64,000 nucleotides of DNA from an uncultured Alphaproteobacteria bacterium. Lineage in GTDB: Bacteria; Pseudomonadota; Alphaproteobacteria; Micavibrionales; Micavibrionaceae. The stretch lies in assembly GCA_900696495.1 (NCBI GenBank), contig CAADGI010000023.1:1-64000 (forward strand), read 5' to 3'. This document shows, one piece after another, positions 57,086-62,676 of this stretch. How positions within the stretch are numbered: position 1 is the first letter of the stretch; each line of letters starts with the position of its first letter. Both the position numbers and the translations under genes were made by a program. The notes beneath the pieces were generated by a model, which made no database searches, was not told the DNA's origin, and saw nothing but the letters and a program-made list of their open reading frames with translations.

Positions 57086-57325
57086 ATGGCGCGCTATGAA
57101 GGCGGCGACGATCTTCTGAAACAGGCCCAGCAGCCGTTCAGCATCATCGAGGAATTCGCGACGTTGAGCGCCAAGCGCAAGGTCTTGCTCTGCGATCATC
57201 TTTTCATCGAAGGGTTTGAAACGTTTCAGAACACCGTGAAACTTCTCTGGCCCGAGGCGACCGCGCTCGACGTGAAAAAACTCGAAAGCTTCCTGGTTCT
57301 TCTGCGCAAAACCGCGCGCTATTAG
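57086..57325 (+). CDS. Small hypothetical protein (79 aa)
   Basis: This soluble 79-residue protein (MARYEGGDDLLKQAQQPFSI; then LCDHLFIEGFETFQNTVKLLW) is helical by composition, with no known family. GGGGTAAAG precedes the ATG at moderate distance. The 150-base upstream region contains TTTACATAAC (56961-56970), also found ahead of the 16962 gene. The 3' end overlaps the convergent gltX stop by 4 bases. Confidence 0.65.
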   Translation: MARYEGGDDLLKQAQQPFSIIEEFATLSAKRKVLLCDHLFIEGFETFQNTVKLLWPEATALDVKKLESFLVLLRKTARY

Positions 57326-58656
57326 GCGGCGAGGCGCTTCTTCACAGTTTCAGGACCGATGAGGGGGAGCAGGCCCGCAAGCTCCGGCCCGTGATCCATG
57401 CCCGTGATCGCCTGGCGCAGCGGCATGAAGAGTTGCTTGCCCTTGCGGCCGGTCTTGTCTTTCACCGCGTTTGTCCAGACGGTCCCTGTCTCGTTGTTCC
57501 ACGGCGCGGGCGGCAGGAGCGTCGCCGCTTCCTGGATGAAGGCGGCGTCCTCGATCTTCGGCTGCACCGGGCCTTTCGCCACGTGCCACCATTCCTTGAT
57601 GTCTTCGAGCTTTTCGAGGTTGGCGCGCACGGCGTTCCAGAATCCTTCGTCGATGCCGGCGAGGCCCATATTGGCGAGGCGCACATTGACGTCGCTGAAA
57701 TTCGTCTGGTGAATGATTTTTGAATTGAGGCGCAGCAGTTCGTCCGGGTCGAATTTCGGCGTGCCGCGCGAGAATTTCGCGAAATCGAAATTGGCGATCA
57801 GCGGTTCCAGGTTTGTGAACGCGTCGATCGGGTCCGACGTGCCGAGACGGGCGAGCAGGCTGTTCACCGCCATCGGCTCAAGCCCCTCATTTTCCTTGAT
57901 TTCCTTCATGCTCAGTGAGCCGAGGCGCTTCGAAAGCTTGCCGCCCTCGGTGTCGGAAATGAGCGGCAGGTGGACGAATTCCGGTGGCTTGGCTTGAAGC
58001 GCCTCGAACATCTGGATGTGCGTCGCGGTGTTGGAGACGTGATCCTCGCCGCGCACGACATGCGTGATTTTGAAATCAATGTCGTCAATAACCGAGCAGA
58101 GATGGTAAAGCGGGCTGCCGTCCTCGCGGATCGCGACCGTGTCGGAGAGTTGCGCGCCGTCGAACTTCACGGGGCCGCGAATGAGATCATTCCACTCGAT
58201 GGATTTATGCTCGAGCTTGAAGCGCCAGTGCGGCTTGCGCCCCTCCGCTTCATATTGTTGTTTCTGCGCGTCGGTCATATTCAGCGCGCCGCGGTCGTAA
58301 ATCGGCGGCAGGCCGCGACCGAGAAGTGATTTACGCTTCAGCGCCAGTTCCTCAGCCGTTTCATAGCAAGGGTAGAGGCGTCCGGAATCTTTGAGTTTCT
58401 GGATCGGGTCTTTGTAACGCTCGAGACGGAGTTTCTGGTTGGTTTTTTCATCCCATTGCAGGCCGAGCCAGATCAGGCTCTCTTCAATCGCCTGTTCATA
58501 TTCCACCTTCGAGCGCTCGGTGTCGGTGTCGTCGATGCGCAGCAGGAAGTGACCGCCATGACGGCGGGCAAACAGCCACGTAATCAGCGCCGTACGGGCA
58601 TTGCCGACATGCAGCATCCCGGTGGGCGAGGGGGCGAAACGAACGCGAATGGTCAT
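57322..58656 (-). CDS. gltX: Glutamyl-tRNA synthetase
   Basis: This class I synthetase charges tRNA-Glu, and in lineages with GatCAB also tRNA-Gln. The 444-residue product has the HIGH-equivalent HVGN (residues 16-19) in PSPTGMLHVGNARTAL, and the KMSKS-equivalent KLSKR in GGKLSKRLGSLSM. VVRGEDHVSNTATHIQM marks the GluRS type. The C-terminal anticodon-binding domain is present. Alphaproteobacteria often carry two GluRS paralogues; whether this is the Glu-only or the tRNA-Gln-specific copy cannot be decided. Confidence 0.96.
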   Translation of the reverse strand: MTIRVRFAPSPTGMLHVGNARTALITWLFARRHGGHFLLRIDDTDTERSKVEYEQAIEESLIWLGLQWDEKTNQKLRLERYKDPIQKLKDSGRLYPCYETAEELALKRKSLLGRGLPPIYDRGALNMTDAQKQQYEAEGRKPHWRFKLEHKSIEWNDLIRGPVKFDGAQLSDTVAIREDGSPLYHLCSVIDDIDFKITHVVRGEDHVSNTATHIQMFEALQAKPPEFVHLPLISDTEGGKLSKRLGSLSMKEIKENEGLEPMAVNSLLARLGTSDPIDAFTNLEPLIANFDFAKFSRGTPKFDPDELLRLNSKIIHQTNFSDVNVRLANMGLAGIDEGFWNAVRANLEKLEDIKEWWHVAKGPVQPKIEDAAFIQEAATLLPPAPWNNETGTVWTNAVKDKTGRKGKQLFMPLRQAITGMDHGPELAGLLPLIGPETVKKRLAA

Positions 58657-58684
58657 AAGTGCACTCTTTCTAAAAAAAATGTTT

Positions 58685-58713
58685 TAACGCAACGCGCGCT
58701 AAGAACGCAACGA
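58685..58713. repeat. Left inverted repeat of the GxxExxY cassette
   Basis: TAACGCAACGCGCGCTAAG continuing AACGCAACGA. It matches the reverse complement of 59112-59141 at about 26 of 29 positions. It lies 3 bases beyond the stop codon of the GxxExxY gene. Confidence 0.85.
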
Positions 58714-58716
58714 AAC

Positions 58717-59106
58717 CTATGATGAAATAAAACGTTTGATGCCGTTTTTTAAGAGTTTTTCATTAAAATTCAGAAGCAAACCCAGTTTTATTTTCGATAA
58801 TCTTAAATAAGTCAGCATTTGGGCTTCATGTAAAGGAATAAGTTTTTCAATGGCTTTAAGTTCCACCAGAACGCAATCTTCAACCAGTAAATCGGCCCTG
58901 AAGCCCATTTCGAGAGTTTTGCCCCTGAAAGGCACAGGAATAATTTTTTGTTTGGAAACATTCATGCCAAATTCAGTGAGAATGTCAGCGAAGCAAACTT
59001 CATAAACGCTTTCAAGCAAGCCTGGTCCGAGCTCTTTATGAACAATGAATGCCGCATCCAGAATTTTTTCGGCGACTTTGTTTTCTCTTTCCGTTGGTTC
59101 TTGCAT
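58717..59106 (-). CDS. GxxExxY protein (PD-(D/E)XK nuclease-like)
   Basis: The 129-residue protein has the defining GPGLLESVYE motif (about 27-36), with HKELGPG before it. The PD-(D/E)XK-like core is FRADLLVEDCVLVELKA (about 68-84; Asp and Glu-x-Lys). The family is widespread, patchily distributed, and has no settled function. AT-rich composition and inverted repeats immediately on both sides suggest a mobile cassette inserted between gltX and nadE. The start ATG fits the family N-terminus. Confidence 0.9.
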   Translation of the reverse strand: MQEPTERENKVAEKILDAAFIVHKELGPGLLESVYEVCFADILTEFGMNVSKQKIIPVPFRGKTLEMGFRADLLVEDCVLVELKAIEKLIPLHEAQMLTYLRLSKIKLGLLLNFNEKLLKNGIKRFISS

Positions 59107-59111
59107 GGAAG

Positions 59112-59141
59112 TCGTTGCGTTCGTAGCGTGCGCTGCGTTTA
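59112..59141. repeat. Right inverted repeat of the GxxExxY cassette
   Basis: TCGTTGCGTTCGTAGCGTGC continuing GCTGCGTTTA, an imperfect inverted copy of 58685-58713. Its outer end contains the nadE stop codon (59139-59141), so an insertion here would have had to preserve or supply the nadE terminus. Confidence 0.85.
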
Positions 59142-60806
59142 ATTTTTATTCTCGATGATTTTCACGAAATGGTTCGTGATCGGGTAGCGGCGGTCGCGGC
59201 CGAAGGCGCGGCGGGTGATCTTGATGCCGGGCGCGGCCTGCCGGCGCTTATATTCGGCGCGGTCGACCATGCGCCATATTTTGAGGATTGTATCGCGGTC
59301 ATGGCCGAGAATAACGATCTCGTTGACGCTCAGTTCCTCCTCGACAAGCAATTTCAGAATGGCATCCAGCGTTTCATAGGGCGGCAACGTGTCCTGGTCG
59401 GTCTGGTTCTCGCGCAATTCCGCCGTCGGGGCGCGGTTGATGGAATTCTGCGGGATGACCGCGCCCGCAGGACCGAAGGCGCCGCGCGGCTTGTTTTTAT
59501 TGCGCCAGTTGGAGAGTTCGTACACTTGCGTCTTGTAAACATCCTTCAGCACATTGAACCCGCCGCACATATCGCCGTACAGCGTGGCGTAACCCACCGC
59601 CATTTCGGATTTGTTGCCGGTGGAGAGAACCATTTTGCCCGATGCGTTCGAAAGCGCCATGAGGATGATGCCGCGCGCGCGGGGCTGGATATTTTCAAAA
59701 GTCGTTGAAGGAGCGTCCTTAAGGTGCGGGCTTAAAACACCCTGCAAGGCGTCGACGGTTTTTTCGATAGAAATTTCATCAACCTTTATGCCGAGATTTT
59801 TCGCAAGCGCCTGCGCGTCGGCGATGCTGACGCTCGACGTATAGATCGAGGGCATCATGACGCCGTGCACGCGCTCAGCCCCCAGCGCATCGACGGCGAT
59901 CGCGGCCGAGAGCGCGCTGTCGATGCCGCCTGAAAGACCGATAAGAATGCCGGGGAAATTATTCTTGCCGATATAGTCGCGCAGGCCAAGCATCAGGGCC
60001 TGGTAAATTTCTTCCTGCGGCGAGAACGCAGGGGCCGAATTTTCAACGCCGCCGAAAATGATGCCCTTGTCGTTTTTCTCAAGCAGCATGTGATAGGTCT
60101 GTTCGGCGAACTGGTCGCCTTCGAGCAGGGTATGGCCTTTTTCATTCATGACGAACGACCCGCCGTCGAAAATCAGCTCATCCTGGCCGCCGACCTGGTG
60201 CACGTAAATCAGGGGCAGGCCGGTTTCCTTGATGCGGTCCGCCGCCAGCTTGTGGCGCACCGCTTTTTTGCCGCTTTCAAAGGGTGAAGCGTTCGGCACG
60301 ACGAGAATCTCAGCGCCGCCTTTTTTCAGGTGCCTGGCGATTTTCGGATACCACATATCCTCGCACAGCATCAGGCCGAGCGAGAAACCGCGAAAATTTA
60401 CCGGATCCGGCAACGGCCCGGCGGTGAAAACGCGCGCCTCGTCGAAGACGCCGTAATTCGGCAAATGATGCTTGGATTGCGTGGCGGTGATTTTGCCGTC
60501 CTCGATCATGTGCATGACGTTATGAATTTTTCCGTCGATCACCCACGGCGAGGGGATGATGGCGGCGGCCTTGCCCTTGCTGAAAGCGACGAGTCTTTCG
60601 ACGGATTTTTTTACCTCGTCGAGAAAAGATTGATTGAGCACCAAGTCCTCGGGCGGATAACCGCACACCGCCATCTCAGGGAACACGACGAGGTCCGTAT
60701 TTTTCGGAACGGAATTCCAGATATCGCAGATTTTTTTCAAATTATAGTCGAGGCCGCCTACGATGGGGTTCATCTGGGCGAGGGAGATGTGGAGTTTAGC
60801 GCTCAT
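59139..60806 (-). CDS. nadE: Glutamine-dependent NAD+ synthetase
   Basis: The enzyme converts deamido-NAD to NAD using glutamine-derived ammonia and ATP, the last step of NAD synthesis. The 555-residue two-domain form has an N-terminal nitrilase-type glutaminase (FPEMAVCGYPPEDL; catalytic Cys in GLMLCEDMWYP). The C-terminal synthetase has the PP-loop GLSGGIDSALSAAIA (about 292-306) and LSTGNKSEMAVGY. The triad Glu, Lys and Cys are in the expected segments. The C-terminus is intact although a mobile-looking cassette begins at its stop codon. Confidence 0.97.
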   Translation of the reverse strand: MSAKLHISLAQMNPIVGGLDYNLKKICDIWNSVPKNTDLVVFPEMAVCGYPPEDLVLNQSFLDEVKKSVERLVAFSKGKAAAIIPSPWVIDGKIHNVMHMIEDGKITATQSKHHLPNYGVFDEARVFTAGPLPDPVNFRGFSLGLMLCEDMWYPKIARHLKKGGAEILVVPNASPFESGKKAVRHKLAADRIKETGLPLIYVHQVGGQDELIFDGGSFVMNEKGHTLLEGDQFAEQTYHMLLEKNDKGIIFGGVENSAPAFSPQEEIYQALMLGLRDYIGKNNFPGILIGLSGGIDSALSAAIAVDALGAERVHGVMMPSIYTSSVSIADAQALAKNLGIKVDEISIEKTVDALQGVLSPHLKDAPSTTFENIQPRARGIILMALSNASGKMVLSTGNKSEMAVGYATLYGDMCGGFNVLKDVYKTQVYELSNWRNKNKPRGAFGPAGAVIPQNSINRAPTAELRENQTDQDTLPPYETLDAILKLLVEEELSVNEIVILGHDRDTILKIWRMVDRAEYKRRQAAPGIKITRRAFGRDRRYPITNHFVKIIENKN

Positions 60807-60827: not shown

Positions 60828-60928
60828 CCGTCATTCCAGCGAAGGCCGGCATCCATGGAAAGTCCGGGGATAATTTATGCAATTCAGCGCGAATGGCAAA
60901 ATGGATTCCAGCCTTCGCTGGAATGACG
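60828..60928. repeat. Type A composite palindromic repeat upstream of nadE
   Basis: Left hairpin CGTCATTCCAGC-GAAG-GCCGGCATCCATGG and right hairpin ATGGATTCCAGC-CTTC-GCTGGAATGACG with about 45 bases between. It lies between nadE and the broken GIY-YIG gene. Confidence 0.9.
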
Positions 60929-60938
60929 CTGTGGGGAA

Positions 60939-61234
60939 TTACGCCGCCAGGTTTTTTGAGAGGTCTGTCCATTGGGGATTATTTTCTTCAATCAGCCTTA
61001 TCTTCCAATCACGTTTCCATGCTTTCAAGCGTTTTTCTCTTAAAATGGCGCTTTCAGCATTGGGATGCTGTTCATAAAATACGAGTTTATGGACACCATA
61101 TTGCGAAGTAAACCCGCCAGTAACCTGATTTTGATACTCCCACATCCGTTTTGGAAGGTTAGATTAGTGACCCCTGTATAAAGCGTTTCGTAATGGCCGC
61201 TGGCTAAAATGTAAACATAGAAGCTTTTATCCAT
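60939..61234 (-). pseudogene. GIY-YIG endonuclease-like gene broken by a 1-base frameshift
   Basis: From the ATG at 61234 the first frame gives MDKSFYVYILASGHYETLYT then GVTN, the GIY-YIG start of the small UPF0213/YhbQ-like group. After TNLTFQ the frame shifts at AAAA near 61150, and the rest continues in another frame: MWEYQNQVTGGFTSQYGVHK, YYEQH-like VFYEQHPNAESAILREKRLKAWKR, ending at 60939. Adding one A gives a continuous protein of about 97 residues. It is either decayed or misread at a homopolymer. Type A repeats border it on both sides. Confidence 0.85.
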
Positions 61235-61253
61235 CGTTTGTCCTTGTGGCACA

Positions 61254-61281
61254 ATGGATCCCTGCCTTCGCAGGGATGACG
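61254..61281. repeat. Single type A hairpin
   Basis: GGATCCCTGC-CTTC-GCAGGGATGACG: one arm of the composite element, close to the DAHP synthase stop and next to the GIY-YIG remnant. Confidence 0.8.
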
Positions 61282-61287
61282 ATCAAG

Positions 61288-62676
61288 CTATTCCGCCGCC
61301 GCCGCCGTCGAGGGGAGATAGCCGCCCTGGCGCAGGCCTTTCAGTTCATCCGCGAGCAGGAAGGCGAGTTCCAATGCCTGGTTCGCATTCAGGCGCGGGT
61401 CGCACGCCGTGTGGTAACGGCTCGATAAATCCTCATCGGTGATTTTCTCGGCGCCGCCGACGCATTCGGTGACGTTCTGGCCGGTCATCTCGAAATGAAC
61501 GCCGCCGGGGTGCGTGCCTTCCGCCTTGTGCACTTCGAAGAATGTTTTGACTTCGGCGAGAATATGCTCGAAGCGGCGGGTTTTGTAACCGGTCGTCGAT
61601 TTGATCGTATTGCCGTGCATCGGGTCGCAGGACCAGACGACGGAGCGGCCTTCCTTCTTCACGGTGCGCAGCAGCGGCGGCAGGCAGGCTTCGGCTTTCT
61701 CATGGCCCATGCGGGCGATCAGCGTCAGGCGGCCCGGGATGTTGTCCGGGTTCAGCGCGTCGATGAGTTTGAGCAGGTCATCCGTCTTCATATCGGGCGA
61801 GCATTTCAGGCCGATCGGGTTCTTGATGCCGCGCATGAATTCGACCTGCGCGTTGTCGAGTTGGTGCGTGCGCGCGCCGATCCACAGGAAGTGCGCGGAG
61901 GTGTCGTACCATTCGCCCGACGTGGAATCCACGCGCGTCATCGCTTCCTCGAAATTGAGGAGCAGCGCTTCGTGGGAGGTGTAGAATTCAGTCTGTTTGA
62001 TCGCCGGGACCGTTTCGCTCGTGATCCCGCAGGCGCCCATGAAGCCCAAAGCTTCACTGATCCGGCCCGCCATCTCCTCATATCTCTTGGTGAGGGGGCT
62101 GTCCTTGACGAATTCGAGGTTCCAGCCATGGACGCGGTGCAAATCCGCATAACCGCCATCGGCGAAAGCGCGCAGAAGGTTCAGCGTCGCCGCCGACTGG
62201 TTATAGGCCTTGAGCATGCGCTCGGGGTCGGGCTTGCGCCCTTTTTCCGAGAATTCGAAACCGTTGATGTTGTCGCCGCGGTAAGCGGGCAGGGTGACGC
62301 TGCCTTGCGTTTCGGAATCGCTTGAGCGCGGCTTGGCGAACTGCCCGGCGATGCGGCCGAGTTTGACGACGGGGAGCGAGCCGGCATAGGTCAGGACCAC
62401 GGCCATTTGAAGAATGACGCGGAACGTGTCGCGGATTTTATTGGCGCCGAATTCAGAGAAACTTTCGGCGCAGTCGCCGCCCTGGAGCAGGAAGGCCTGT
62501 CCTTCGGCAACCTTGGCCAGTCTTGCCTGGAGGTTGCGCGCCTCGCCCGCGAAGACAAGCGGCGGCAGCCTCGAAATCTCGGTTTCGATGCGTTTCAGGG
62601 CCGCCTGGTCGTCATAAACCGGCATTTGCAAGACCGGTTTCGTGCGCCAGGATGAGGGGGACCAGTTCCGGGACAT
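61288..62676 (-). CDS. Class II 3-deoxy-7-phosphoheptulonate synthase
   Basis: DAHP synthase condenses phosphoenolpyruvate and erythrose 4-phosphate, the entry to aromatic amino-acid synthesis. The 462-residue plant-type (AroA-II) enzyme has [10 protein letters not shown] (about 63-72; metal-ligand Cys), [14 protein letters not shown] (about 104-117), [34 protein letters not shown] and the late [18 protein letters not shown] (in part). An Ala-rich tail ends the protein. It stands alone, with the divergent HD-domain gene on the other side. Confidence 0.96.

Follow-up and report, generated by a model that had tools for sequence, protein, structure and literature searches.

What is a single small gene doing between nadE and gltX, closely bracketed by a pair of inverted repeats, in an uncultured alphaproteobacterium of the family Micavibrionaceae, and could the nuclease that it encodes have a part in its own movement? 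The gene and its repeats lie in the window, i.e. the whole 64,000-nt stretch of DNA that was analysed (GenBank assembly GCA_900696495.1, contig CAADGI010000023.1), and a preliminary description had taken them for a minimal mobile cassette. Combining the layout of this unit with comparisons across the GxxExxY family and across related genomes, the present analysis arrives at a reading that we hold to be moderately likely, namely that we are dealing with a minimal mobile element lacking a promoter of its own, the Cas4-like nuclease of which would recognize short heptads and would move the unit as well as gene-less copies in trans. No published account of GxxExxY mobility or of the repeat words was found in the literature within reach, which included few subscription papers.

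Layout of the unit

The inserted unit measures about 460 bp (58683..59142) and is AT-rich, with 38 % GC compared to approximately 57 % in its surroundings. Upstream of it lies nadE, the host operon gene for NAD synthase (59139..60806, minus strand), and downstream of it gltX, the host gene for Glu-tRNA synthetase (57322..58656, minus strand). Between the repeats is one gene, on the minus strand (58717..59106), which encodes a GxxExxY protein of 129 aa that has kept its catalytic residues; its assignment to the PD-(D/E)XK nuclease fold is based on the ORF, profile matches, conserved residues and a structural model. Inverted-repeat search and inspection of the sequence place the left arm, on the gltX side, at 58683..58713 (plus strand) and the right arm, on the nadE side, at 59112..59142 (minus strand). 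The two arms, 31 nt each, 87 % complementary and 398 nt apart, are the sole inverted pair found in the surrounding 1 kb. Where the preliminary description had seen imperfect inverted repeats of 29–30 bp, the bounding repeats are indeed present, their length is 31 nt, and each divides into three 7-mers. On the gltX side, the heptads are CGCAACG (58688–58694), CGCTAAG (58697–58703) and CGCAACG (58706–58712), with an AT-rich edge, TTTTAA, ahead of them; on the nadE side, read on the minus strand, they are CGCAGCG (59137–59131), CGCTACG (59128–59122) and CGCAACG (59119–59113). The nadE stop codon, TAA (59139..59141, minus strand), falls within the right arm, as had been claimed, and is contained in the element's TTTAA edge.

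The GxxExxY protein

The gene had been called complete, and the product of the 58717–59106 ORF is a full-length TIGR04256/PF13366 protein. It matches TIGR04256 over profile positions 2–116 of 116 (E 4.5e-40; 136.6 bits, cut-off 35) and PF13366, PDDEXK_3, with an E-value of 1.6e-38 (132.1 bits, cut-off 22), and these are its only profile matches. With a full-length match and both the GxxExxY and the D...ExK motifs, the protein belongs to the GxxExxY/PDDEXK_3 family, in which G21, G23, E26, Y29, D66 and K78 are invariant and E76 is nearly so. Conservation across 99 proteins is 98–100 % for the catalytic residues (D, E and K) as well as for the QxxxY and GxxExxY motifs. The predicted structure of the window protein (pLDDT 95.5) has a PD-(D/E)XK fold, and its nearest solved fold is that of the Cas4 protein SSO0001 (Z 9.3 over 96 residues); lambda exonuclease and related nucleases are weaker structural matches. 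Since the Foldseek E-values for the model are above 0.001, the link between the GxxExxY and Cas4 folds is a moderate one, and a sequence search returned no solved homologues of GxxExxY. The nearest relatives of the window protein, encoded at L122 (63 %) and L127 (59 %), occur in different genera and at different sites; their ends likewise carry CGCNACG-type words. PADLOC gave no match for the GxxExxY gene, which is thus not among the anti-phage defence genes that it recognizes, and PHROGs gave none either; a novel defence role is possible.

Cassette ends across the family

Inverted ends accompany GxxExxY genes in many phyla, and the gene's carriers include cultured bacteria such as Brumimicrobium aurantiacum N62 and Methylobacillus sp. 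MM3 (L052 and L067). A locus was counted as having ends when its flank-to-flank alignment score was no lower than the 99th percentile of the scores of 755 control ORFs, and by this measure ends are present at 70 of 102 GxxExxY loci, leaving approximately 30 % of the genes in this first set without clear ends; they are also present at 35 of the 40 loci of a second set, taken from across the phylum. The window gene scores 44, as against a control maximum of 31; a score of 28 or more was reached by 0.8 % of the 755 control ORFs, and the score of the window unit by none. That an unrelated gene merely came to lie between accidental repeats, a notion for which only the general ubiquity of short repeats speaks, is refuted by these controls, by the reversed-pattern control given below and by the recurrence of the same anatomy across phyla, and its probability is negligible.

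The usual end consists of three heptads of the form CRCNNMG, separated by spacers of 1–3 nt. In a divergent GxxExxY subfamily the heptads are CRCNNAT with 3-nt spacers, and in small groups they are CRCNNAA or CRCNNAC. The exact word varies from element to element and is common to both arms of an element: the consensus heptad is the same in the two arms in 78 % of cases, is held in common with the other arm of the nearest relative in 46 %, and with a random arm in 3 %. When the word is mapped onto a tree of 139 proteins, its last letters require four changes (shuffled mean 18, minimum 13), its CAC/CGC letter eight (shuffled mean 20, minimum 15) and its two middle letters 30 (shuffled mean 43, minimum 36). 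Word type is associated with protein subfamily, an agreement that would arise in part from linkage alone. We consider it likely that the GxxExxY protein recognizes the heptads.

Placement in operons and the question of pairing

Among loci with both neighbours assigned, the cassette has the same sense as both in 54 and the opposite sense in two. Its 5' end lies a median of 10.5 nt past the upstream stop codon, and no more than 30 nt past it in 41 of 48 cases. A promoter scan gave nothing above chance, and the data are most simply read as expression of the gene from the host operon, which misplaced copies would lose. Phages and plasmids were considered as the usual vehicle and rejected, as GxxExxY occurs in none of 50,697 phage records and in five of 72,556 plasmid records.

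Strict sense orientation within operons would also be expected of an RNA-level parasite resembling the intervening sequences of 23S rRNA, the arms of which would form a stem in the transcript and be removed by RNase III, so that pairing would matter. The intervening sequences described measure 428 nt, contain a small ORF as well as tandem heptamers, have inverted ends and undergo RNase III excision (PMC4990558), and in Coxiella the tandem heptamers stand just ahead of the S23p ORF (PMC4990558). The GxxExxY unit is similar in its size (approximately 430–460 bp for the two kinds), its one small ORF, its inverted ends and the presence of heptamers beside the ORF. In contrast to the S23p type, it does not lie in a 23S rRNA gene, its ORF encodes a GxxExxY nuclease rather than a four-helix bundle, its heptad word and spacing are different, and it gives no sign of selected stem pairing. 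Thus, in 52 gene-bearing elements, the likeness of heptads that would pair is 0.886 and that of non-pairing heptads 0.871 (p=0.17), and in gene-less elements the corresponding values are 0.841 and 0.857. In the spacers, matching is at chance level for gene-less elements (0.33, null 0.41) and somewhat above it for gene-bearing ones (0.58, null 0.42). An origin as an rRNA intervening sequence was rejected given that the unit sits between two protein genes, nadE and gltX, and that an Rfam scan of the window returned tRNAs only; pairing of a hairpin or RNA as the selected feature was rejected as well, since potential pairing brought no greater likeness between heptads. Overall, the RNA-level explanation is very unlikely. 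Because pairing in a hairpin makes no difference to their likeness, each heptad looks like a protein-binding site, and an element would have six of these.

Empty sites and mobility

A check set beforehand, the search for empty sites between gltX and nadE in relatives, had a positive outcome: in both available same-genus species the nadE–gltX gap is shorter than 50 bp and has no unit. Among the loci of 29 other relatives, none has a GxxExxY gene within 1.5 kb of nadE. The genome from which the window comes (G000) contains four GxxExxY genes, each bounded by a separate pair of ends, together with compact gene-less elements that carry the window's CGCNACG word. When seven further sites of this genome, three gene-bearing and four gene-less, were compared with those of sister species, the G000 unit proved to be absent from at least one sister species at all seven, and two of them have an unrelated insertion in one sister species. 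At C5:41323, the GxxExxY gene of G001 is a different one, and its word, CACGAAG, is that of G000. In another genus, two species with approximately 88 % nucleotide identity yield two clean filled/empty pairs. In the gene-less pair, a 168-bp element sits exactly after a TAA stop codon, where it replaces 2 bp and no target duplication can be seen; in the gene-bearing pair the cassette sits after another TAA. Other comparisons between these two species are less clean. In neither of the two clean pairs, L323/L324 and L325/L326, is a target-site duplication clear, the flanks being approximately 12 % diverged.

Some cassettes have been kept at one site across genera (L004, L181 and L176), and some empty sites may therefore be losses. 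Gene-bearing cassettes are never recent duplicates of one another within a genome, the best identity in 67 pairs being 63 %. Between the close loci L048/L055 and L287/L289, all heptads appear changed in place, an observation given little weight because the identity of the sites is judged from flank similarity only.

Two individual sites deserve separate mention. Between the ATP synthase genes, the sisters G000 and G001 share both the site and the CACGAAG word (L003 and L108), their proteins are clearly diverged, and G002 is empty there; repeated insertion, cassette exchange and fast evolution are candidate readings. At L187, the G001 counterpart of the L004 site, an unrelated insert occupies a position similar to that of the L004 cassette, and this gap has therefore been used by more than one element.

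The gain and loss of units as whole blocks between close species speaks against the idea that GxxExxY is an immobile accessory nuclease serving autoregulation or host defence, with the heptads as its operators and the gene-less sites as operators of host genes. Iterated short words do resemble operator sites, and a position behind a stop codon would permit control of downstream genes; however, the inverted ends bracket the gene instead of being placed at a promoter, the databases of defence and phage genes contain no match, and the idea is rated as highly improbable. Mobility of the unit itself, in contrast, we regard as very probable.

Gene-less copies and the tie to the gene

The preliminary description had also pointed to other copies of the repeats as a means of judging the cassette, and such copies are strongly tied to GxxExxY genes across genomes. 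The class A arm pattern has 333 sites in 95 related genomes, and the reversed-pattern control has 11. Class A arms are found in 30 of 34 GxxExxY carriers (313 sites) versus 11 of 61 non-carriers (20 sites; p=2e-11), and at least two arms in 28 of the 34 versus four of the 61; phylum-wide, in 299 genomes, at least three arms occur in 21 of 37 carriers versus 14 of 262 non-carriers (p=1e-13), all of these being counts across genomes that are not phylogenetically independent. Class B arms average 20.4 per genome where a class B gene is present, 1.8 where all GxxExxY genes are of class A and 0.6 where there is no gene. Because empty sites exist and the repeats are tied to GxxExxY genes, the mobile-cassette part of the earlier claim is well supported; for its other part, a role of the nuclease in its own mobility, such a role, although inferred, is the best explanation of the data.

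Many of the arm matches are compact gene-less elements with 10–40 nt between the arms, and other gene-less elements are longer, enclosing other repeats and even one element within another. At L226, L227, L229, L230 and L323, for example, heptad-ended gene-less elements often contain pairs of CGTC-type REPs, or else another element with heptad ends. At L238 (G039:C48), the CACCAAG arm is present three times on one strand, with an exact 834-bp spacing and close to the end of a contig, a pattern suggestive of tandem duplication or of an artefact of assembly.

The main counter-evidence consists of orphan repeats without a gene and of a weak match between words at a fine scale. Sixteen genomes were picked for having arms without a gene hit and were then subjected to a GxxExxY profile search, which found nothing in 13, a short significant GxxExxY fragment in one and sub-threshold scores in two. 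Some orphan genomes hold 45 (G232), 16 (G012) or 15 (G053) arms, and it is plausible that gene loss lies behind them. The word of gene-less arms coincides exactly with that of the resident gene in 32 % of cases, with 21 % expected (p=0.06), and G018 has 11 CACGAAG arms but a gene with the CACAGAG word.

Orphan repeats in gene-free genomes are what one would see if some other enzyme, of the host or of a transposon, moved the ends and the gene-less elements, with GxxExxY as captured cargo. The fact that gene cassettes do not multiply inside a genome fits as well, as does the occurrence of other small genes, those for the four-helix-bundle S23 and for GIY-YIG proteins, between inverted repeats. 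Yet the ends are specific to the GxxExxY family and to its subfamilies, S23 genes have a different repeat of 7-nt period, the S23-only genomes G012 and G038 have no class A arms, and nearly all copies of the nuclease have retained an intact active site. This alternative is unlikely, and our judgement leans slightly towards the GxxExxY nuclease as the driver of movement.

Other cassettes of gene and repeats

On the other side of nadE, at 60890–61290, the window contains a frameshifted single-domain GIY-YIG gene (minus-strand ORFs 60939–61145 and 61040–61252) flanked by inverted CGTC-type palindromes. At 29 GIY-YIG loci of relatives (L293–L322), CGTC-type flanks are seen in about two thirds, and the CGTC core motif is present on both sides in 11 of the 29, compared to 1.3 % of control positions. 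CGTC-tagged REPs have been reported without a dedicated transposase (PMC3733652), and for this reason the GIY-YIG protein is a candidate for their enzyme, a matching case that ties CGTC REPs to GIY-YIG nucleases. The arrangement parallels the GxxExxY cassette, as a gene with inverted repeats in the same window and in relatives, whereas its repeat and its nuclease fold are different. The S23 (TIGR02436) loci L128–L153 are flanked by inverted arrays with another 7-nt period (e.g. AGTTTTC and TCCGAATC), and S23 genes are co-directional with tandem neighbours by 14 to 0.

A proposed mechanism and its implications

RAYT genes are, like the GxxExxY cassettes, few and chromosomal. GxxExxY cassettes resemble the RAYT-REPIN (REPtron) system in that a chromosomal nuclease-type gene, in few and divergent copies, is flanked by inverted short repeats, and in that a population of gene-less elements at intergenic sites is tied to the gene across genomes, here with orphans in addition. 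They differ in that the enzyme is a Cas4-like PD-(D/E)XK protein and not an HUH Y1 tyrosine transposase, and in that the ends are composed of three CRCNNMG or CRCNNAT heptads and not of GTAG-tagged palindromic hairpins, hairpin pairing not being conserved. With insertion sequences and MITEs they share a gene between terminal inverted repeats, gene-less miniatures and clean empty sites; unlike these, they have a single PD-(D/E)XK ORF with no DDE transposase and three-site ends with a word that differs from element to element.

In the mechanism that we propose, a GxxExxY multimer would bind the three heptads in duplex DNA at each end, and the bound protein would cut or process the DNA there. The whole cassette would then be copied or moved, and gene-less elements with matching ends would be moved in trans. 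Insertion would be directed into intercistronic operon gaps after stop codons, probably without target duplication, and the cassette would be transcribed from the host operon. The fullest version of this proposal envisages a sole enzyme of approximately 125 residues, a Cas4/lambda-exonuclease-like PD-(D/E)XK protein with three 7-bp sites per end and a word that co-evolves with the protein, which moves itself and gene-less copies into post-stop operon gaps without target duplication; the GIY-YIG and S23 cassettes would be parallel systems, the GIY-YIG protein would be the missing enzyme of the CGTC REPs, and the whole would constitute a previously undescribed class of mobile element. We offer this version tentatively, as a possibility that falls somewhat short of being probable.

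If the reading is right, a PD-(D/E)XK nuclease alone would replace the transposase in a REPIN-like replicator, and widespread unexplained repeats in environmental genomes (CCACGGAGACACGGAG and similar) would be explained. The three-heptad ends provide an exact DNA target for assay, and GxxExxY, a common and conserved family of unknown function, would thereby gain a testable role.
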